From Streptomyces sp. NBC_01451 (GTDB lineage Bacteria; Actinomycetota; Actinomycetes; Streptomycetales; Streptomycetaceae): a stretch of 64,000 nucleotides of DNA. The notes under the pieces were generated by a model that saw only the letters and a program-made list of their open reading frames with translations, was not told the DNA's origin and ran no database searches. Both the position numbers and the translations under genes were made by a program. Below, one piece after another: positions 37,873 through 47,421 of the stretch. Where the stretch lies: assembly GCF_036227485.1 (NCBI RefSeq), contig NZ_CP109479.1, positions 1,860,001 to 1,924,000 of the forward strand, read 5' to 3'. Every line of letters starts with the position of its first letter. Position 1 is the stretch's first letter.

Positions 37873-39171
37873 ATGCCTTTAACGACACCGCGCATCGCCG
37901 GTGTGGACGTGGTCCGTGGACTCGCGCTGCTCGGTATGTTCTCCGTGCATGTATTCGGAGCGTTCGAGCCTGACAATTCACCGACGGTGGCCTGGCAGTT
38001 GGCGGGCGGCCGGTCCTCGGCGACCTTCGCGCTGGTGGCCGGAGTCGGCCTCGCCTTCACCACCGGGGGCCGCACTCCCCGGGTCGGCCGCGGCTCGCTC
38101 GCCGCGGTCACCGCCCGGGCGCTCTCCGTCGGTCTCATCGGGCTGCTGCTGGGCTACGCCGCCAACGCGGGCGGCCTCGAAGTCGACGTCATCCTCGCCT
38201 TCTACGCCCTGCTGTTCCTGCTCGCCCTGCCCCTGCTGACCCTGCGGGCACGGACGTTGGCCTGCGTCGCCCTCGCTCTGGGCGTGGTCGCGCCGTTCCT
38301 CGTCCACCTGCTCAGGGGGGTGCTGCCCGAACCCGCCTTCGAGGGTGATCCGACGCTCCAGGACGTCGTCACCGACCCGGCCGGTCTCCTCTGCGCCCTT
38401 CTCGTCCACGGCTCCTATCCGGTCCTGGCGTGGATGGCGTACCTCTGCGCGGGGCTCGCCATCGGGCGCCTCGACCTCTTCGACCGGCGCACCGCGACCC
38501 GGCTGCTGACCGGCGGGCTGACGCTCGCCGCCGCCTCCTGGCTGGCCTGCTCGTGGTGGCTCTTCCGCTGGGGCGGTCTGGAGCGGCTGCGGCAGGCCGA
38601 GTTCCCCGACGCAACCGGGCCGCACGCCCGCGACGAGGTCCTGTGGGACAGCCCGGACGGCGCGACCTGGTGGTCGATGATCTCCCGCGCCCCGCACTCC
38701 ACCTCGCCGTTCGACCTGCTGCACACCCTCGGCGCGTCCATCGCCCTGCTCGCCGCGGTCCTGCTGCTGAGCCGGCTCACCGCGGTGCGGCGTGCGCTGC
38801 TCCCGCTGGCGGCTGCCGGAAGCATGCCGCTGACGCTCTACACCGCCCATGTCCTGTTCCTCGCCACCGGAGCGCTGAACGGCTCCCCCGACCTCCAGTA
38901 CGCCGTACTGGTCGCGGGCTCGCTGCTCTTCGCGGTCGGCTGGCGACTCGCCAGGGGCCGGGGCCCCCTGGAGTCCCTGGTCGCGGAGGCGGCCCGGCTC
39001 GCCAGGGAGTGGGAACGGGGACTGGGTCGGGGACGGGCGCAGGGGAGCCCGCCCGGGGCACCGGTCCGCGGACCCGAACCGACCGAACCGACCGAACCGA
39101 CCGAACCGACCGAACCAGCCGAACCAGCCGAACCGACCGAACTGATCGAAAGCCAGGACCAGCACCGCTGA
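37873..39171 (+). CDS. Membrane acyltransferase (HGSNAT/DUF418-like)
   Basis: 432 aa from ATG 37873 (CGGAG 7 nt upstream). It starts PRIAGVDVVRGLALLGMFSVHVFG, the signature of heparan-glucosaminide N-acetyltransferase-like/DUF418 membrane proteins, with about ten spans to residue 365. HTLGASIALLAAVLLL and GSMPLTLYTAHVLFLATG are conserved late helices. Such proteins carry acetyl groups across the membrane to amines or sugars. The C-terminus is a tandem (TEP)n/(AEP)n tail. Codon 3 is TTA (37879-37881), the rare leucine codon read by the bldA tRNA. The next gene starts 10 bp after its stop, so it probably heads the NRPS-like operon. Acylation of the product is my inference. Confidence 0.8.
   Translation: MPLTTPRIAGVDVVRGLALLGMFSVHVFGAFEPDNSPTVAWQLAGGRSSATFALVAGVGLAFTTGGRTPRVGRGSLAAVTARALSVGLIGLLLGYAANAGGLEVDVILAFYALLFLLALPLLTLRARTLACVALALGVVAPFLVHLLRGVLPEPAFEGDPTLQDVVTDPAGLLCALLVHGSYPVLAWMAYLCAGLAIGRLDLFDRRTATRLLTGGLTLAAASWLACSWWLFRWGGLERLRQAEFPDATGPHARDEVLWDSPDGATWWSMISRAPHSTSPFDLLHTLGASIALLAAVLLLSRLTAVRRALLPLAAAGSMPLTLYTAHVLFLATGALNGSPDLQYAVLVAGSLLFAVGWRLARGRGPLESLVAEAARLAREWERGLGRGRAQGSPPGAPVRGPEPTEPTEPTEPTEPAEPAEPTELIESQDQHR
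39076..39147 (+). repeat. Tandem 9-bp repeat, GAACCGACC unit
   Basis: Eight consecutive 9-bp units (four exact, then two GAACCAGCC, one exact and one degenerate). They encode the repetitive C-terminus of the acyltransferase. Confidence 0.9.
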
Positions 39172-39181
39172 GGAGCTCATC

Positions 39182-41827
39182 GTGGGGGGAAAAGTGGGGG
39201 GAAAACCGATCGAGTTGGCACCCATGCCGCCGACCGATCCGACCGAGCACACGACCAAGCACACGACCGAACACCCGGCCGGGCTCACGGCCGGCGCCGG
39301 GGGCGGCACCGAGCGGATCCTCGCCGAGGTGCTCGCGGGCGTCGTGAAGCGGGACCAGGTCCCGCTGGACAGCCACTTCTTCGACGATCTCGGCGCCAAC
39401 TCCCTGGTCATGGCGCACTTCTGCGCCCGGGTCAGGAAGCGGGACGACCTGCCGTCGGTGTCGATGAAGGACGTGTACGGCAATCCGACGATCCGGAGTC
39501 TGGCGGCGGCGCTCACCGACACCCCGGCCGAGGCACCCGCCGCACCGCCGGCCGAGGCCCCGGTGCCCGGCAGTACCTCGCGGTATGTCCTGTGCGGGGC
39601 GGCGCAGTTGCTGATCTTCGCCGCGTACTGCTTCCTCACCGGGCTCGTCACGGTCGAGGGCTACCAGTGGATCAACGCCGGTTCGGGGGCCGTCGACGTC
39701 TATCTGCGGTCGGTCGTGTTCGGCGGCGCCGCCTTCGCGGGGATGTGTGTGCTGCCGGTGGCCGCCAAGTGGGTGCTCGTCGGCCGGTGGCAGCGAGCCG
39801 AGTTCCCCGTCTGGGGGCTCGCCTATCTGCGCTTCTGGACGGTCAGGGCACTGCTCAACGCCAACCCGATGCGCCTGTTCACCGGGAACCCGCTGTACGT
39901 GCTCTACCTGCGGGCACTCGGCGCGCGGATCGGCAAGGGCGTCACCATCCTCTCGCCCGCCGTCCCGGTCTGCACCGACCTCCTCACGGTCGGCGCGGGC
40001 ACGATCATCCGCAAGGACTCCTACTTCCTCTGCTACCGGGTCGTCGCCGGACGCGTCCGGACCGGCCCGGTCACCCTCGGCAGGAACGTCCACGTCGGCG
40101 AGAAGACCGTCCTCGACATCGGTACGTCGATGGGTGACGGTTCCCAACTCGGCCACGCCTCGGCGCTGTTCGAGGGCCAGGCGGTGCCGGCGGGCCTGCG
40201 CTGGCACGGCTCACCCGCCCAGCCCACGGACGTGGACCACGTGCGGATCCCCGGGGCCCACTGCTCCACCGCACGCCGGGCCGCCTACGGACTCGCGAGT
40301 CTTCTCCAACTCCTGCTGATGTACGTGCCGTTGGCGGTCGGTGGCAGCTTTCTGCTGCTCGACCTGGCACCCCGGCTCGAAGTACTGATCGATCCGGACG
40401 TGGCCGACATGATCTCGGTCCGCTTCTACGCCGAGGCCGTGGGCATCTCCCTCGCGCTCTTCGCCGCCGCGATCGTCGCCGGAGCCGTGACCGTGACCCT
40501 GGTCCCCCGGCTGCTGAACCTGGTGATCAGGCCCGGCCAGGTCTATCCGCTGTACGGCCCGCACTACTCGGCGCAGCGGGCCGTCGCCCGTCTGACCAAC
40601 CTCAAGTTCTTCAAGTGGCTGTGCGGCGACAGCTCGTACATCGTCCACTATCTGCGGGCCATCGGATACGACCTCTCGCACGTCGAGCAGACCGGCTCCA
40701 ACTTCGGTACCGAGATGCAGCACGAGAACCCGTACCTGGTCTCCGTCGGCCGCGGCACGATGGTCGCCGACGGGCTGTCGGTCCTGAACACCGACTACTC
40801 CGGTACGTCCTTCCGCGTCTCGCGGACGTCGATCGGGGCGCACAGCTTCCTCGGCAACCACATCGCCTACCCCGCCGGGGGCCGCACCGGCGAGAACGTC
40901 CTGCTCGCGACCAAGGTCATGGTGCCGCTCGACGGTGAACTCCGGGAGAACGTCGGCCTGTTGGGATCACCTTCGTTCGAGATCCCACGGTCGGTGGAGC
41001 GCGACAGCAGCTTCGACCATCTGCGTGAGGGCGACGAGTTCCGGCGGCGTCTCGCCGCGAAGAACCGCTACAACCTGCGCACGATCGGCCTGTTCCTGTT
41101 CGTCCGCTGGCTGCACTCCTTCCTCCTGACGGTGCTCGGCTTCGCCGCCTTCGCCGTGTACGGCACGCACGGCATCGCCGCCGGCGCGCTGGTCGGCGCG
41201 TCCCTGGTCCTCGGGCTCGTGCTCACCGCCGGGTACTACGTGCTGGTCGAACGGCTCATCACCCGGTTCCGGCGCCTGGTACCGCGGCTGGTCTCCATCT
41301 ACGACCCGCACTTCTGGTGGCAGGAACGGCTGTGGAAGGTGCCGGTCGACTTTCTCGTCGTGTTCAACGGGACGCCGTTCAAGAACCTGCTGTGGCGGCT
41401 GCTGGGCGTCCGTGTCGGGCGCCGGGTCTTCGACGACGGCGCCGCCATCACCGAGCGCACGCTCACCACGATCGGCGACGACTGCACGCTCGGCGCGCAC
41501 AGCAAGATCCAGGCCCACTCGCAGGAGGACGGCACCTACAAGTCCGACCACATCGTCCTCGGCCGGGGCGTCACGCTCGGCACCGGCGCGCTCGTCCACT
41601 ACGGCGTGTCGATGGGCGACGGTTCCCAACTCGCCCCGGACTCCTTCCTGCTGAAGGGCGAGGAGGTGCCGTGCCTGGCCCGCTGGGGCGGCAACCCGGC
41701 GGTGGCCCTGCGCAGCGACCAGGTCCCACCGGCCGGACAGGTCGACCGGAACAGCCGGAGCGACCGGATCGCACACACCACAGACACCACAGACACCGCA
41801 CAGATCTCGACGGGGGCAGTCCGATGA
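39182..41827 (+). CDS. Carrier protein fused to Pls/PosA-type membrane synthetase domain
   Basis: 881 aa from GTG 39182 with AGGAG 6 nt upstream. Residues about 40-112 form a peptidyl carrier protein with the phosphopantetheine site S74 in DDLGANSLVM. The rest is a Pls/PosA-type C-terminal region: membrane pairs near 138-155, 180-200, 375-395, 415-440 and 640-690, alternating with three soluble domains carrying hexapeptide-repeat, acyltransferase-like sequence (GVTILSPAVPVCTDLLTVGAGTII, NVHVGEKTVLDIGTSMGDGSQLGHAS, IGDDCTLGAHSKIQAHSQEDG). This matches the part of epsilon-poly-lysine synthetase after its A-T module, which joins amino acids into isopeptide chains at the membrane. It overlaps the A-PCP gene by 4 bp. 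Confidence 0.85.
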   Translation: MGGKVGGKPIELAPMPPTDPTEHTTKHTTEHPAGLTAGAGGGTERILAEVLAGVVKRDQVPLDSHFFDDLGANSLVMAHFCARVRKRDDLPSVSMKDVYGNPTIRSLAAALTDTPAEAPAAPPAEAPVPGSTSRYVLCGAAQLLIFAAYCFLTGLVTVEGYQWINAGSGAVDVYLRSVVFGGAAFAGMCVLPVAAKWVLVGRWQRAEFPVWGLAYLRFWTVRALLNANPMRLFTGNPLYVLYLRALGARIGKGVTILSPAVPVCTDLLTVGAGTIIRKDSYFLCYRVVAGRVRTGPVTLGRNVHVGEKTVLDIGTSMGDGSQLGHASALFEGQAVPAGLRWHGSPAQPTDVDHVRIPGAHCSTARRAAYGLASLLQLLLMYVPLAVGGSFLLLDLAPRLEVLIDPDVADMISVRFYAEAVGISLALFAAAIVAGAVTVTLVPRLLNLVIRPGQVYPLYGPHYSAQRAVARLTNLKFFKWLCGDSSYIVHYLRAIGYDLSHVEQTGSNFGTEMQHENPYLVSVGRGTMVADGLSVLNTDYSGTSFRVSRTSIGAHSFLGNHIAYPAGGRTGENVLLATKVMVPLDGELRENVGLLGSPSFEIPRSVERDSSFDHLREGDEFRRRLAAKNRYNLRTIGLFLFVRWLHSFLLTVLGFAAFAVYGTHGIAAGALVGASLVLGLVLTAGYYVLVERLITRFRRLVPRLVSIYDPHFWWQERLWKVPVDFLVVFNGTPFKNLLWRLLGVRVGRRVFDDGAAITERTLTTIGDDCTLGAHSKIQAHSQEDGTYKSDHIVLGRGVTLGTGALVHYGVSMGDGSQLAPDSFLLKGEEVPCLARWGGNPAVALRSDQVPPAGQVDRNSRSDRIAHTTDTTDTAQISTGAVR
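39241..39276 (+). repeat. Tandem 12-bp repeat in synthetase N-terminus
   Basis: Three degenerate GACCRARCACAC units encode TEHTTKHTTEHP ahead of the carrier domain. A separate exact 12-bp duplication (GTGGGGGGAAAA twice) covers the start codon at 39182-39205. Confidence 0.75.
41775..41801 (+). repeat. Tandem 9-bp repeat, ACACCACAG unit
   Basis: Two exact units and one degenerate, encoding the HTTDTTDTA stretch near the end of the Pls-like protein. Confidence 0.75.
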
Positions 41828-44178
41828 ACACGATCCCACGCTGGATACCCGGCCCGGTGCCGGGCGAGAACCCGCGGCGCCCGCGCCACTCGGTGTACGC
41901 CGAGTACGAAGTCCCCTTGGACGCCAGTCTGTTGAGGTCGGCCTCGTTCGAGTCCGCGCTGCTCGCCGCGCACGCCAAGGTCCTTGCCGTGCTCTCCGGT
42001 GAACGGGAGGTCACCACCGGGTACGTGGCGGTGAAGGGCGGACGGCCCGTGCCCCGCCGGATGCTGGTCGGCCCCGGTTCCTGGCGGGAACTGCTGGCGA
42101 TGACGGACCTCGCCGACGAGGTGGGCGAGGCCGACGAGCCGCCGTACGAGACCGTGCTCGACCCGCACGGCGGCGAGCCGGCCGACGACGGCGCCGACAG
42201 CATCGTGCTGCACCTGAGCGTCGGCGGGCGCACCCTGCGCCTGCGCCACCGCACCGACGTCCTCGACACCGGCGCGGCTGCCCGGATCGCCGGCTACCAC
42301 CTGACCGCGCTCTCCCTGATGGCCGCCGACCCGGACGCCGACCACGAATCGCAGAGCCTGCTGTCGGGAGACGAACTCGCCTTCCAACTGGACGGGTTGG
42401 CGGGCCCGCACCGTGAACTCCCGGACCGCCGGGTGCACGAGCTGTTCGAGGAGCGGGTACGGCAGCACCCGGACGCGGTCGCGGCCGTGCAGGGCGGCAC
42501 GGAGTGGACCTACCGGGAGCTCAACTCCCGGGCGAACCAGCTCGGTCGGGCGCTGCTGGCCCGCGGCCTGGCCCCTGAGGGTGTCGTCGCCGTGGTCACC
42601 GAGCGCAACCTCGACTGGATGGCCGCCGTGCTCGGGGTGCTCAAGGCGGGCGGTGTCTATCTGCCGGTCGAGCCGCACTTCCCGGCCGGGCGCATCGCCG
42701 CCACCCTCAGCCGCGCCGAGTGCGCGTTCGTCGTCACGGAACACGGCAGCACCACCACGCTGGACGGGACGGGGACCGACGTACCACGGCTGTATGTCGA
42801 CGAGATCGGGGCGGAGGGGCACGCGGACCACGACCTGGGGGTGAGTGTCGGCGCGGACCGACTGGCCTACATCTACTTCACGTCCGGGTCGACCGGCGAG
42901 CCCAAGGGCGCGATGTGCGAGCACGCGGGCTTCGTCAACCACGTCCTCGCCAAGCTGGAGGATCTGGGCGTCGGCGAGGGCCAGGTGGTCGCGCAGACCG
43001 CTCCCCAGTGCTTCGACATCTCCCTGTGGCAGCTGGTGTCGGCGCTGCTCGTCGGCGGCCGGACCCTGCTGGTCGCGCAGGACGTGATCCTGGACGTGCC
43101 CCGGTTCGTGGACACGGTCGTGGACGGCGGGGTCAATGTGCTCCAGATCGTGCCGTCGTACCTCGAAGCCGTGCTGGCCGAGCTGGAGCAGCGGCCACGC
43201 GAACTCCCGGACCTGCACTGTGTGTCGGTCACCGGGGAGGCGGTGAAGCGGGAGCTGGTGCAGCGCTGGTTCGCCGCGCAGCCCGGCATCAAGGTCGCCA
43301 ACGCCTATGGCCTGACCGAGACTTCGGACGACACCAACCACGAGGTGATGGACCGGGTGCCGGACGGGCCCCGGGTGCCGCTCGGCCGGCCCGTGCGCAA
43401 CGTACGCGTGTACGTCGTCGACGAGCACCTCGCGCCCGTGCCGCTCGGGGCGCCCGGCGAGATCGTGTTCTCCGGGGTGTGTGTCGGGCGCGGGTACGTC
43501 AACGATCCCGAGCGCACGGCGGCGGCCTTCACGCTGGACCCGTACCGGCCCGGTGAGCGTCTCTACCGCAGTGGTGACCACGGGCGCTGGCTGCCCGACG
43601 GCAGGCTGGAGTTCCTCGGCCGCCGGGACACCCAGGTGAAGCTGCGCGGGTTCCGGATCGAGATCGGCGAGATCGAGAACGCGCTGCTGCGGGTGCCCGG
43701 GGTCCGGGACGGCGCCGTGGTGGTCGTGCGGGGCGCGCGGCTGGCGGCGTTCTGCACCGGCGCCGAACTCGTCGGCGTACAGGAGCGGTTGGCGCAGGCG
43801 CTGCCCGCGTACATGGTTCCGGCGGCCGTGCACTGGCGGGAGCGGCTGCCGCTCACCGCCAACGGCAAGACCGACCGCAGGACGCTCACCGCGCTCGCGG
43901 AGGAACTCGAATCCGCCGAGGACCGTGCCGTGGAGGGCGTCCGGGGGCCGGAGACCGCCGGTGAGCGGCGGCTGGCCGCCGCCTGGGCGGAGGTGCTCGG
44001 CGTCCCGGCGGACCGGATCGGCCGTCTGGACCACTTCTTCGACCGTGGCGGCACCTCGCTGTCCGCGGTCCGGCTCGCGATCGCCCTCAACCGGGCGATC
44101 ACCCTCAAGGACGTCATCCGCCACCCGGTCCTCGCGGACCTGGCCGAGCTGCTCGACGCACCGGCCGCCACCGCCTGA
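41824..44178 (+). CDS. NRPS adenylation-carrier protein with truncated condensation-like N-domain
   Basis: 784 aa from ATG 41824 (ATGA overlap). Residues 1-185 look like half of a condensation domain without HHxxxDG. The adenylation domain (about 200-665) has core motifs YIYFTSGSTGEPKG, FDISLWQL, NAYGLTET, YRSGDHGRW, GRRDTQVKLRGFRIE and the lysine of LPLTANGKTDRR. Aligned by eye with GrsA, the specificity residues are D398, I399, W402, Q, S, T, A494, D502, D503 plus Lys; two aspartates suit a substrate with a side-chain amine. A C-terminal carrier domain has S745 in DRGGTSLSAV. It presumably activates L-2,3-diaminopropionate made by the SbnA/SbnB pair. No thioesterase. Confidence 0.88.
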   Translation: MNTIPRWIPGPVPGENPRRPRHSVYAEYEVPLDASLLRSASFESALLAAHAKVLAVLSGEREVTTGYVAVKGGRPVPRRMLVGPGSWRELLAMTDLADEVGEADEPPYETVLDPHGGEPADDGADSIVLHLSVGGRTLRLRHRTDVLDTGAAARIAGYHLTALSLMAADPDADHESQSLLSGDELAFQLDGLAGPHRELPDRRVHELFEERVRQHPDAVAAVQGGTEWTYRELNSRANQLGRALLARGLAPEGVVAVVTERNLDWMAAVLGVLKAGGVYLPVEPHFPAGRIAATLSRAECAFVVTEHGSTTTLDGTGTDVPRLYVDEIGAEGHADHDLGVSVGADRLAYIYFTSGSTGEPKGAMCEHAGFVNHVLAKLEDLGVGEGQVVAQTAPQCFDISLWQLVSALLVGGRTLLVAQDVILDVPRFVDTVVDGGVNVLQIVPSYLEAVLAELEQRPRELPDLHCVSVTGEAVKRELVQRWFAAQPGIKVANAYGLTETSDDTNHEVMDRVPDGPRVPLGRPVRNVRVYVVDEHLAPVPLGAPGEIVFSGVCVGRGYVNDPERTAAAFTLDPYRPGERLYRSGDHGRWLPDGRLEFLGRRDTQVKLRGFRIEIGEIENALLRVPGVRDGAVVVVRGARLAAFCTGAELVGVQERLAQALPAYMVPAAVHWRERLPLTANGKTDRRTLTALAEELESAEDRAVEGVRGPETAGERRLAAAWAEVLGVPADRIGRLDHFFDRGGTSLSAVRLAIALNRAITLKDVIRHPVLADLAELLDAPAATA

Positions 44179-44212
44179 CGACGGCCGTCGCCGCACCGAA
44201 AGGAACGACACC

Positions 44213-45280
44213 ATGACACTCTCGTCCGCCTCATCGACGTCAACCCCACTGTCCCGGGCCGCACTTCCCGGCATCGAGCTGGTACCCGGCCGACCGCCGA
44301 CCCTGCGCACCCCGCCCGTCACCGACCCCGCGGAGTGGGCGGGCGCCCACCGGGACGCGCTGCGGGCGGCCGTCGCGGAGCACGGCTCGCTGCTGGTGCG
44401 CGGCCTCGGCCTGCACGAGCCGGTCGGCACCGGCGCCGTCCTGCGGCGGCTGGCCGACGGCCTGATGGGCGACCAGGAGGCCTTCGCGCCCCGGCGGCGG
44501 TACGCCGACGGCGTGTACTCGTCCTCCAAGTGGCCGCCGAACCAGCCGATGTGCATGCACCACGAGCTGAGCTACGCGCTGGACTTCCCCGGCCTGCTGA
44601 TGTTCGCGTGTCTGGAGGCGCCCGCCGAGGGCGGCGCCACCGGGGTGGCCGACTCGGCGGCCGTGCTCGACGCGCTGCCCACCGAACTCGTCCAGCGCTT
44701 CGAGCGGGAGGGCTGGTTGCTCACCCGGACGTTCAACGACGAGATAGGCGCGACGGTCGCCGAGGCCTTCGGCACCTCCGACCGGGCCTCGGTCGAGCGG
44801 TACTGCCGGGCCCACGCCATCGAGTTCGTCTGGGAGCTGGACGGCTCCCTGCGCACCCGCCAGCGCCGCGGTGCCGTGCTGCGCCACCCGGTCACCGGCC
44901 ACCGCTGCTGGTTCAACCAGATCGCGTTCCTCAACGAGTGGACGATGGACCCGGAGGTCCACGAGTACCTGGTCGACGTGTACGGCGCCGACGGTCTCCC
45001 CTTCAACACCCGCTACGGCAACGGCGATCCGATCGGCGAGGACGTCGTCCAGACCCTCAACGAGGTGTACGCGGCGCACACGGTGCGCGAGCCGTGGCGC
45101 GGCGGCGATCTGCTGCTCGTCGACAACATCCGTACGGCGCACAGCCGGGAGCCCTTCGAGGGGCCGCGCGAGGTCCTCGCCGCCCTCGCCGACCCGGTCC
45201 GCCGCACCGACTCCGCCGACTCCACCGGCTCCACCGGCTCCACCGGCTCCACCGGCTCCACCGAAGGGACAGCCTCATGA
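44213..45280 (+). CDS. Fe(II)/2-oxoglutarate dioxygenase (TauD/SyrP/clavaminate synthase-like)
   Basis: 355 aa from ATG 44213 (AAAGGAA upstream), 34 bp after the A-PCP gene. Jelly-roll dioxygenase with the facial triad H116-x-E118 (CMHHELSYALDFPG) and H310 (VDNIRTAHSREPF), then R near 320 (GPREVL) for 2-oxoglutarate. The His-x-Glu form is typical of clavaminate synthase-like enzymes; SyrP-type members beta-hydroxylate amino acids bound to carrier proteins. Inference: hydroxylation of diaminopropionate or of the growing chain. The C-terminal STGSTGSTG tail comes from a 9-bp tandem repeat. It overlaps the SbnB-like gene by 4 bp. Confidence 0.87.
   Translation: MTLSSASSTSTPLSRAALPGIELVPGRPPTLRTPPVTDPAEWAGAHRDALRAAVAEHGSLLVRGLGLHEPVGTGAVLRRLADGLMGDQEAFAPRRRYADGVYSSSKWPPNQPMCMHHELSYALDFPGLLMFACLEAPAEGGATGVADSAAVLDALPTELVQRFEREGWLLTRTFNDEIGATVAEAFGTSDRASVERYCRAHAIEFVWELDGSLRTRQRRGAVLRHPVTGHRCWFNQIAFLNEWTMDPEVHEYLVDVYGADGLPFNTRYGNGDPIGEDVVQTLNEVYAAHTVREPWRGGDLLLVDNIRTAHSREPFEGPREVLAALADPVRRTDSADSTGSTGSTGSTGSTEGTAS
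45211..45264 (+). repeat. Tandem 9-bp repeat, CTCCACCGG unit
   Basis: Six units (four exact, first and last degenerate) at the 3' end of the dioxygenase gene, encoding the Ser-Thr-Gly tail. Confidence 0.9.
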
Positions 45281-46314
45281 CCACGAACCCTGTCACCGTC
45301 CCGCCGTTCTCGGTCGTCTCCGGCGAGCAGGTCCAACAGGCCCTCCAGGGCCGGGAGCCGGACGTCGTCGGCCTGGTCGAGGCGGTGTACCGGCTGCACG
45401 GGGCCGGGGACTCGGTGAACCCGCCCTCGTACTTCCTGCGGTTCCCGGACCGGCCGTCGTCCCGGATCATCGCGCTGCCCGCGTCGATCGGCGGGGACGT
45501 GCGCGTGGACGGGCTGAAGTGGGTCTCCAGCTTCCCGGAGAACGTGGCGGCCGGGATTCCGCGGGCGTCGGCCGTGCTGATCCTCAACGACCACGACACG
45601 GGCTATCCGTTCGCCTGCCTGGAGAGCTCCATCATCAGCGCCTCCCGTACGGCCGCCTCGGCCGCGCTGGCCGCCGACCGGCTGAGCCGGGGACGCGCCA
45701 GGCCCACGCGGGTCGGCTTCGTCGGCACCGGGCTCATCGCCCGCTACATCCACACCTATCTGGCCGCCACCGGCTGGGAGTTCGACGAGACAGGCGTGTT
45801 CGACCTGTCCCCCGACAGCGCGGCCGGCTTCCGGGGCTACCTGGAGCGGTCCGACGGCGTCGGCAAGGTCACCATCCACCACAGCGCCGAACAGCTCGTG
45901 CGGGCGAGCGACTTGCTGGTGTTCGCCACCGTGGCGGCGAAGCCGCACATCCACGACGTGTCGTGGTTCGACCACCATCCGCTCGTCCTGCACGTCTCGT
46001 TGCGCGACCTCGCGCCCGAGATCCTGCTCGCCTCGGCGAACTTCGTCGACGACGTCGAGCACTGCCTGAAGGCGGAGACCTCCCCGCACCTGGCCGAACA
46101 GCTCACCGGCGGCCGGGAGTTCATCGACGGCACGCTGGACGACGTGCTCACCGGGCGCACGAGGGTGCCGGTGGACCGGACGGTGGTGTTCTCGCCCTTC
46201 GGCCTCGGAGTGCTCGACCTCGCCGTCGGCAGGTTCGTCCACGACGAGGTGGCCCGCCGAGGCGAACTGCGTGTCGTCGACGGCTTCTTCCACGAACTGC
46301 GCCGGCACGGCTGA
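45277..46314 (+). CDS. sbnB: SbnB-like N-(2-amino-2-carboxyethyl)-L-glutamate dehydrogenase
   Basis: 345 aa from ATG 45277. Ornithine cyclodeaminase-fold dehydrogenase: NPPSYFLRFPDRPSSRIIALPASIGGD, GLKWVSSFPENVAAGIPRASAVLILND, NAD-binding VGFVGTGLIARYIHTYL, and VFSPFGLGVLDLAVG. In staphyloferrin B biosynthesis SbnB oxidatively hydrolyses the SbnA product to L-2,3-diaminopropionate plus 2-oxoglutarate. The adjacent SbnA-like gene supports the same step here; 2-oxoglutarate is also the co-substrate of the neighbouring dioxygenase. Confidence 0.88.
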   Translation: MTTNPVTVPPFSVVSGEQVQQALQGREPDVVGLVEAVYRLHGAGDSVNPPSYFLRFPDRPSSRIIALPASIGGDVRVDGLKWVSSFPENVAAGIPRASAVLILNDHDTGYPFACLESSIISASRTAASAALAADRLSRGRARPTRVGFVGTGLIARYIHTYLAATGWEFDETGVFDLSPDSAAGFRGYLERSDGVGKVTIHHSAEQLVRASDLLVFATVAAKPHIHDVSWFDHHPLVLHVSLRDLAPEILLASANFVDDVEHCLKAETSPHLAEQLTGGREFIDGTLDDVLTGRTRVPVDRTVVFSPFGLGVLDLAVGRFVHDEVARRGELRVVDGFFHELRRHG

Positions 46315-46413
46315 CCCCCGTTCAGGGGGGTCGGTCGCAGCGCCCGGCCACCCGGGTGCCGTGCCACAGATCAGGCGGGCCGAGCACAGGCGCGCCACAC
46401 ACAGGGGGACAAC

Positions 46414-47421
46414 ATGCCAGTCATTTCGCAGCCGTCGGACTTCAACGAGGATGAGCTCTACGTCGACCTCCGGGCCACCGTGGGCCTCCCCCTCTTCCTG
46501 AAGTGCGAGGGCTTCAACTTCGCCGGTTCGATCAAGATGAAGGCCGCCTACGAGATGGTGACGGCCGCCGAACGGGACGGCAGGCTACGGCCGGGATCCG
46601 TGCTCGTGGAGTCCTCGTCGGGCAACCTGGGCGTCGCGCTCAGTGTGCTCGCGGCGGGCCGGGGCTACCGGTTCCTGTGCGTGACCGACTCGCGCTGCAA
46701 CGCGCAGGCGATCCGCACGATGGAGGCGCTGGGCAGCCGGGTGCACGTCATCGACCGGCCCGACCTGCACGGCGGTTTCCTGGGCGCCCGGATCGGGTAC
46801 GTCCGCGCGCTGTGCGCCTCCGACGAGCGGTATGTCTGGCTCAACCAGTACACCAACCAGGGGAATTGGCGGGCGCACTACCGTACGACGGCACCTGCCA
46901 TCGCCCGCCGGTTCCCGGGCCTCGACGTCCTGTTCGTCGGCGCCGGCACCACCGGCACGCTGATGGGCTGCGCGCGCTGGTTCTGGCAGTGGAACCGGCG
47001 GGTGCGGATCGTCGCCGTGGACGCCGTCGGCTCGGTCACCTTCGGCGGTCCGCCCGGACCCCGGATGATCCCGGGCCTGGGCACGAGCGTACGGCCGCCG
47101 CTGCTCGACGAGTCGTACCTCGACGAGGTGATCCACGTCGAGGAACCGGACGCGGTGCGCGTCTGCCGCCGGCTGGCCTCCCGGGGCTTCCTGTTCGGCG
47201 GGTCCACGGGCACGGTGATCAGCGGGGCGACCCAGTGGCTGGCGCGGCACGACGGCCGCGACCTCACGGCGGTGGCGATCGCGCCGGATCTCGGCGAGCG
47301 CTACCTCGACACCGTGTACCACCCCGGCTGGCTGGAGGCCCTCCAGGGCGAGCAGGCCGCCGGCCAGAACCTGGCGTCCCTGGCCTCCGACGAACTGGCG
47401 GCACTCTCCCGGCCGGCCTGA
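46414..47421 (+). CDS. sbnA: SbnA-like PLP enzyme for 2,3-diaminopropionate synthesis
   Basis: 335 aa from ATG 46414. Cysteine synthase-fold (PLP type II): GFNFAGSIKMKAAYEM with the probable Schiff-base lysine K41, phosphate-binding ESSSGNLGVALS, GAGTTGTLMGCARW, and LFGGSTGTVISG. SbnA joins O-phospho-L-serine and L-glutamate to N-(2-amino-2-carboxyethyl)-L-glutamate. The FAGSIKMKAA variant of the usual GSxKDR site is typical of SbnA-like enzymes rather than of CysK. Last gene of the cluster. Confidence 0.88.
   Translation: MPVISQPSDFNEDELYVDLRATVGLPLFLKCEGFNFAGSIKMKAAYEMVTAAERDGRLRPGSVLVESSSGNLGVALSVLAAGRGYRFLCVTDSRCNAQAIRTMEALGSRVHVIDRPDLHGGFLGARIGYVRALCASDERYVWLNQYTNQGNWRAHYRTTAPAIARRFPGLDVLFVGAGTTGTLMGCARWFWQWNRRVRIVAVDAVGSVTFGGPPGPRMIPGLGTSVRPPLLDESYLDEVIHVEEPDAVRVCRRLASRGFLFGGSTGTVISGATQWLARHDGRDLTAVAIAPDLGERYLDTVYHPGWLEALQGEQAAGQNLASLASDELAALSRPA

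Follow-up and report, generated by a model that had tools for sequence, protein, structure and literature searches.

A possible two-protein, trans-loaded diaminopropionate polymer synthetase in a recurrent actinomycete gene set

A divided synthetase beside genes for diaminopropionate supply

We analysed a stretch of 64,000 nucleotides from Streptomyces sp. NBC_01451 (hereafter the window), covering positions 1,860,001-1,924,000 of one 10.27-Mb contig, and focused on a group of genes that an earlier note, made from the letters alone, had proposed to produce a polymer or oligomer of 2,3-diaminopropionate (Dap). Open frames and domain scans agree with the earlier note that six intact genes, here called g1 to g6, lie where it placed them in the same direction (plus strand), spanning 37873-47421 with intergenic gaps of 52, -4, 34, -4 and 99 bp. 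The core is formed by five of these: g2 (carrier-membrane protein), g3 (adenylation (A)-carrier protein), g4 (TauD), g5 (SbnB) and g6 (SbnA). The synthetase is indeed divided over two proteins that each have a carrier, with PP-binding matches in both g2 and g3. The domain scan found no thioesterase (TE) or exporter among the six genes, as had been claimed, and no DdaG-type or ATP-grasp domain; TE domains do occur in some relatives, also in TauD fusions.

The 867-residue g2 protein (39224..41827) combines a carrier domain (PP-binding, 4.5e-8) with a membrane domain (residues 124-826, 39593..41701) that scored 781.6 bits against TIGR02353 (cut-off 423.1; profile positions 2-695 of 695). This score bears out the proposed Pls/PosA-type membrane region and is that expected of a Pls/PosA cationic homopolymer synthetase. 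Such synthetases hold A, carrier and membrane domains in one chain; g2 has no A-domain match, and TIGR02353 is not among the matches shown for g3. The carrier serine of g2 lies in the motif LGANS (39401..39403). Counted from the ATG at 39224 as start codon, this residue is Ser60; the earlier numbering of S74 holds only from an upstream GTG at 39182. A readable carrier serine motif was present in 70 of 72 related g2 frames longer than 700 residues, the other two being called from downstream of the motif. We also inspected an AlphaFold model of g2 (mean pLDDT 66; below 50 in the last 60 residues and in parts of the third strand-rich region), which consists of the carrier helices, three long helix pairs and three strand-rich regions. 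The helix pairs and strand-rich regions follow the same order as in the PosA model reported in PMC10522769. According to the same paper, structural information on the Pls-type membrane domain does not exist. Searching with Foldseek, we found that the closest solved folds were hexapeptide acetyltransferases covering a small part of the model only. For the Pls-type membrane domain, one partial match to a solved structure was found and none over its whole length.

The 784-residue g3 protein (41824..44178) contains an A domain (AMP-binding, 4.3e-78) followed by AMP-binding_C and PP-binding domains. Its A-domain core motifs are intact (TSGSTGEPKG, NAYGLTE, YRSGD, KLRGFRIE and NGKTD), and its carrier serine, in the motif GGTS (44056..44058), is exactly the S745 predicted earlier. 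All 75 related g3 frames longer than 600 residues carry the serine-containing motif. About 200 residues precede the A domain; this stretch has no Pfam match of its own in g3, and the protein has no HHxxxDG motif. We infer that the stretch is a remnant of a condensation domain, because the N-termini of two relatives match PF00668 weakly: the longer N-terminus of L048 does so from position 188 (1.3e-5; 24.5 bits, below the cut-off of 30.6), and that of L062 at 0.0058.

The 355-residue g4 protein (44213..45280) is a TauD-type Fe(II)/2-oxoglutarate oxygenase (PF02668, 1.4e-43). H116, E118, H310 and R319, the HxE...H and arginine pattern of the TauD fold, are invariant in 12 aligned sequences including that of the window, and by analogy would be the metal and 2-oxoglutarate ligands. 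The g4 model (mean pLDDT 78) has At3g21360 as its nearest solved fold. The product of g5 (45277..46314) matches the SbnB-type dehydrogenase of Dap synthesis (TIGR03944; 410.9 bits, cut-off 326.9) and is the sole copy above cut-off in the genome. The product of g6 (46414..47421) matches the SbnA-type pyridoxal phosphate (PLP)-dependent synthase (TIGR03945; 384.4 bits, cut-off 349.95) and has the motifs SIKMK, SSGN and GTTGT. Both exceed the NCBIfam equivalog cut-offs, as expected of Dap supply to a synthetase of poly-Dap (PDAP). The Dap supply claimed earlier is thus upheld, and a role of SbnA and SbnB in making L-Dap is well supported by family scores and gene context.

We therefore considered a reading in which g2-g6 would encode a trans-loaded PDAP-type synthetase: a polymerase of the poly-Dap type that lacks its A domain would be loaded by an A-carrier protein resembling DdaD of dapdiamide biosynthesis, and carrier-bound Dap would be oxidised by TauD. 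We place the probability of this reading at about 0.48.

Conservation of the set and its association with TauD

To describe conservation, we used 80 loci kept from 489 relatives in a TauD alignment scan of named genomes (the named set, to which all counts out of 80 refer). All of g2-g6 were present in 72 of these loci, in hosts that include Streptomyces, Actinacidiphila, Kutzneria, Kibdelosporangium, Actinomadura, Microtetraspora, Actinoplanes and Pseudonocardia. The exceptions were six loci at contig ends (L133, L134, L140, L152, L170 and L171), L177 on a 10.5-kb contig (no g6) and L196 (no g5). Conservation at this level rules out a chance neighbourhood. HxE and distal histidine motifs were found in 75 of the 80 called TauD frames with a pattern that admits natural variants; a first, stricter pattern had recovered 55. 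A second collection, the genus set, comprised 15-20 kb around 40 g2 matches that were hand-picked to span 92-55% identity. Here g3 and g4 accompanied g2 in 37 of 40 loci and all of g2-g6 were present in 36, with L031 ending at a contig end. The divided synthetase is no local oddity: g2 matches (E <= 1e-80) occurred in 142 of 392 genus genomes, counting that of the window and scoring two candidates per genome. TauD relatives counted alone were found in 70 of 297 family genomes (E <= 1e-100) and in 12 of 396 phylum genomes (E <= 1e-50, window included), five of these 12 at just 36-38% identity. Matches to TauD on plasmids were all below 60% identity, and no relatives were found in viral contigs.

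We next examined 61 genus genomes that, apart from the window's own, had not been selected for the gene set. The TIGR02353 cut-off was exceeded in 34 of them. Judged by open-frame length, 18 of the 61 encode a split-type g2 (812-1002 residues) and 27 a single-chain protein (at least 1172 residues), with both in 11. TauD was present in all 18 split-type genomes versus 4 of the 43 others (p = 5.6e-12, uncorrected for kinship and thus only a guide), and the two genes lie at most 4 kb apart in 16 of the 18. The single-chain type showed no such link (TauD in 12/27 versus 10/34, p = 0.29). These counts bear on a reading in which Dap is polymerised without modification, possibly into the comb-like poly[beta-(Dap-Dap)]; one carrier would then serve the backbone and the other the branch, and TauD would have a side role. 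A Streptomyces that makes poly-lysine is reported to yield a comb-like polymer of Dap, as cited in PMC10522769; two carriers could supply both parts, and the window genome also encodes a single-chain synthetase. We nevertheless regard this reading as distinctly unlikely, given that all 18 genomes with a split-type g2, chosen independently of the set except for the window's own, also have TauD, and that TauD shares a frame with A-carrier domains in 4 of 38 relatives.

That fusion is one of several architectures among the 38 g3 homologues of the genus set. Besides the A-carrier form of the window, we found A-carrier-TE proteins (7/38), A-carrier-TauD in one frame (L060 and L069) and A-carrier-TE-TauD (L062), and in L067 a single frame of 2301 residues joins the equivalents of g2, g3 and g4 as carrier-membrane, A-carrier and TauD. 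A TE motif was detected in 8 of the 38 (window's protein included) and in 29 of the 75 g3 proteins of the named set, two sets that overlap; Pfam confirmed the TE in L054 and L117. The 7.7-kb contig L116 has successive repeated pieces of g3, g4 and g2, perhaps through tandem duplication or through misassembly.

The g3-g6 genes also occur away from g2. In the 19.5 kb examined around each, L117 has g3-g6 without g2 beside an A-ketoreductase-carrier protein and an ABC transporter, and L118 has them beside a modular nonribosomal peptide synthetase (NRPS). A plasmid NRPS cluster in Kitasatospora carries g3- and g4-like genes (60 and 53% identical) with no g2 annotated. This cluster (L215:12519-17216) also has a lyase, a GHMP kinase and a PLP/ATP-grasp fusion, has no annotated SbnB, and possibly follows another route to Dap. 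Because g3-g6 or g3-g4 turn up in other clusters where no g2 was found, g3-g4 look like a transferable unit that would be able to provide various pathways with a modified amino acid. Besides g2-g6, no gene family, and hence no exporter, was found in more than 37 of the 80 loci. YihY-like and AidB-like neighbours, named by reading only, reached 35/80 and 37/80 and were ruled out as pathway genes, being confined to one shared arrangement and not seen elsewhere.

The g1 gene (37873..39171), encoding a 432-residue membrane protein, matches HGSNAT_cat (PF07786, 2.9e-7) above cut-off and Acyl_transf_3 under it. A homologue was present in 15 of 80 loci, including L182 from a Pseudonocardiales metagenome-assembled genome (after g5) and L189 (before g2); a few other loci end at contig ends. 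We therefore ruled out g1 as a core part and regard it as an accessory, optional gene for a putative acyl-adding tailoring enzyme, which does not sustain the earlier inclusion of the acyltransferase in the system. In the genus set, the g2-like gene of L070 adjoins a g1-like acyltransferase frame (35%) and that of L061 a frame reading like a transposase. The C-termini of g1, g2 and g4 are low-complexity tails of short repeats (TEPTEPTEP, TDTTDT and TGSTGSTGS), which for g2 and g4 differ or are absent in aligned relatives.

These features touch on a reading in which g2 does not polymerise at all: g3 and TauD, with the TE of relatives, would prepare oxidised Dap, and g2 would transfer single units to a lipid, a wall polymer or a small molecule. 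The Dlt system has a separate A protein, a carrier and a membrane acyltransferase, the layout seen here. The occurrence of g3-g6 or g3-g4 without g2, the second membrane acyltransferase g1 in 15/80 loci and the lack of a constant exporter family fit such modification of an envelope component or other acceptor. We consider it unlikely, since among the enzymes compared the nearest to g2 is a single chain whose pocket is of PDAP type, and since characterised enzymes with this membrane domain make polymers, according to PMC4668381 and PMC10522769.

The adenylation pocket and single-chain relatives

The pocket code of g3 reads DIWQSTADDK in 71 of 75 relatives in the named set and DIWQSTTDDK in the other 4. 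The same pattern was found in 36 of the 38 genus g3 proteins, the remaining two being incomplete pattern matches, and the g3-like protein of Kitasatospora reads DIWQATCDDK. Position 3 of the g3 pocket is Trp. According to PMC10522769, positions 1 and 3 are conserved as Asp and Glu in the pockets of the Pls/PosA (CHPA) family, and PDAP and PDAB synthetases carry Phe at position 2. Because the g3 pocket is without this Glu and its code matches none that was looked up, Dap is proposed as the g3 substrate from the gene neighbours. The code also lends itself to another reading, in which g3 activates a different amino acid and Dap is only the amine partner, giving a hetero-amide or heteropolymer: DIWQSTADDK is not of the Dap-polymer type. 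DIWELTADDK is a pocket code for 2,4-diaminobutyrate, an assignment that no search confirmed. We find this quite improbable. SbnA and SbnB are constant and, with no family besides g2-g6 in more than 37/80 loci, no other amino-acid gene is; the Asp at positions 8 and 9 would also suit a diamino acid.

We then compared g2 with single-chain synthetases. The pocket DAESIGT..K is common to the first 24 single-chain rows read, in which L088 and L126 represent the same gene, and to L128-L131. The g2 membrane domain was just 24.9-26.9% identical to ten of these rows (L088/L126 again one gene), and close kinship with the DAESIGT..K enzymes was thereby ruled out (25-27%). The L088/L126 gene is the window genome's own single-chain synthetase (G000:C1:7881373-7883412), the pocket of which fits the epsilon-poly-lysine type. 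The intact single chain L127, on the other hand, was 51.8% identical to g2. An eye reading of its pocket gives DFECLSVVTK (the printed FDFSVEE shows the Glu), though a script alignment gave DFWCLSVVTK; we assign it to the PDAP/PDAB type on the eye reading. The comparison of g2 with the PDAP lineage ran via L127 (52%). A second single chain with a D-F-E pocket, L219, was just 27-34% identical to g2.

Two split-type relatives from Pseudonocardiales, L177 and L182, have g2 proteins that keep a decayed A domain before the carrier. The A3 motif of this remnant reads TSGSTDHPEG or TSGSTDRPEG, without its lysine, and the alignment shows no C-terminal subdomain. The remnant pocket begins D-F-E in L177 and D-C-Q in L182, and in L182 the Pfam match to AMP-binding stops at position 327 of 384, with no match to AMP-binding_C. 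A plasmid of Pseudonocardia alni (L213:4418-8929) encodes a single-chain protein in which a degenerate A domain and three carriers precede the membrane domain, with TauD adjoining. The remnants in L177 and L182 suggest that the carrier of g2 once had its own loader. In the simplest history, the original A domain would have decayed once a separate A-carrier protein could load the g2 carrier.

Proposed trans-loading compared with known systems

The likeness to the synthetases of PDAP, Pls and PosA (CHPA, NAPAA) lies in a carrier followed by a TIGR02353-type membrane domain and, for PDAP, in the supply of Dap by homologues of cysteine synthase and ornithine cyclodeaminase, as PMC4668381 reports. 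Whereas the Pls/PosA family has A, carrier and membrane domains in a single chain, the window has its A domain on a separate protein with a second carrier, a different pocket and an added TauD. PMC4668381 places the Dap genes of S. albulus PD-1 away from pdaps; in the window they are in the same cluster. The g2-g6 proteins may thus work like a PDAP-type synthetase and yet depart from two defining features of one, the single chain and the Glu at pocket position 3. A similarity network described in PMC10522769 kept protein lengths of 1100 to 1800 residues only, so the split type of about 870 residues would fall outside it. We found no description of the five-gene set in open-licence literature, and it may be described elsewhere.

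The closest likeness of the other half is to dapdiamide ddaA-D, in which sbnA, sbnB, TauD and A-carrier genes are likewise adjacent and TauD acts on a carrier-bound Dap derivative. Pantoea vagans pPag2 has the order sbnA-sbnB-TauD-NRPS-hydrolase with, farther on, a gene named ddaG; the window's g6, g5, g4 and g3 were 43, 43, 35 and 30% identical to its sbnA, sbnB, TauD and NRPS. We take these pPag2 genes to be ddaA-D, the record itself naming ddaG only. The gene order is inverted in the window, the six genes lack DdaG, an ATP-grasp and an AsnB-like gene, and the DdaD-like pocket reads DSEDIGVINK versus DIWQSTADDK in g3. According to PMC12451424, DdaC carries out its oxidation on a substrate tethered to DdaD, which by analogy offers the best precedent for action of TauD on Dap bound to g3. 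In the sulfazecin pathway (SulG/H, SulM, SulO), Dap is likewise made and carrier-loaded, and a nonheme iron oxygenase helps install the methoxy group of a Dap-derived product; it differs in being a modular NRPS with condensation domains and in that SulO works after beta-lactam release (PMC11298585).

In the trans-loaded synthesis that we favour, SbnA and SbnB would produce L-Dap, and the A domain of g3 would activate it and load the g3 carrier. TauD would oxidise Dap there, as DdaC does on DdaD, after which either the A domain or the loaded carrier of g3 would charge the carrier of g2. The earlier note had held that transfer between carriers is needed; it may occur but is not required, as one A domain could load both. 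The membrane domain of g2 would then link Dap via its beta-amino groups into a short isopeptide chain, as Pls, PosA and PDAPS suggest, and g1, where present, would acylate the product. The two-protein form would go back to a single-chain A-carrier-membrane enzyme whose A domain decayed and whose loading passed to a DdaD-like A-carrier, which the relatives support, the order of events being conjectural. Since both non-carboxyl carbons of Dap bear nitrogen, C-hydroxylation would on chemical reasoning give a carbinolamine, which would last only if its nitrogen were acylated and would otherwise go on to dehydro-Dap or an aldehyde. The ladder of 102 Da proposed earlier for hydroxy-Dap is thus one possible outcome, neither the only nor the safest expectation; because hydroxylated Dap may persist or go on to dehydro-Dap, steps of 84 and 102 Da are equally worth expecting.

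Several observations weigh against this synthesis. The g3 pocket does not resemble those given for CHPAs in PMC10522769, and no characterised A domain with the code DIWQSTADDK was found in open-licence literature. The TauD fusions contain in-frame Met codons, so that separate translation is possible, and a TauD motif was present in 0 of the 75 g3 homologues of the named set. Release without a polymerase would also be compatible with the g3 carrier and with the TE domains that some relatives have. Three loci (L052, L061 and L070) encode g2-like carrier-TIGR02353 proteins without g3-g6 in the stretch examined; in 2 of the 18 split-type genomes (G012 and G034) g2 and TauD are not near each other. 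The TauD of the Pseudonocardia plasmid sits with a single-chain protein, with no g3-type gene annotated within 9 kb of an incomplete gene table. L127 has no SbnA or SbnB match in its 19 kb. Support in the tree was weak for all three nested groups: L127 plus the split group versus the rest (UFBoot 58, SH-like 0.88), the split group without L127 (39, 0.27) and the split group without both L127 and L067 (65, 0.97). The tree gave no clear order of branching for these two. Because of this weak support, the case for grouping L127 with the split type rests on identity and on the remnant A domains.

A bolder proposal, which we offer only tentatively, is that a PDAP-type polymerase without its A domain was rescued by a dapdiamide-type pair of A-carrier and TauD, and that the result is a widespread, two-carrier, trans-loaded class that would polymerise carrier-oxidised Dap, as dehydro-Dap or N-acyl carbinolamine units, into an undescribed polyamino acid. 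The membrane domain is normally fused to an A domain, and the split proteins let trans-loading, carrier choice and polymerisation be tested separately. Here, loss of the loading domain seems to have left the membrane enzyme reliant on a partner like that of an antibiotic pathway. As the set is common, with a split-type g2 in 18 of 61 genus genomes, the study of one cluster may open a large unassigned class of actinomycete metabolites.

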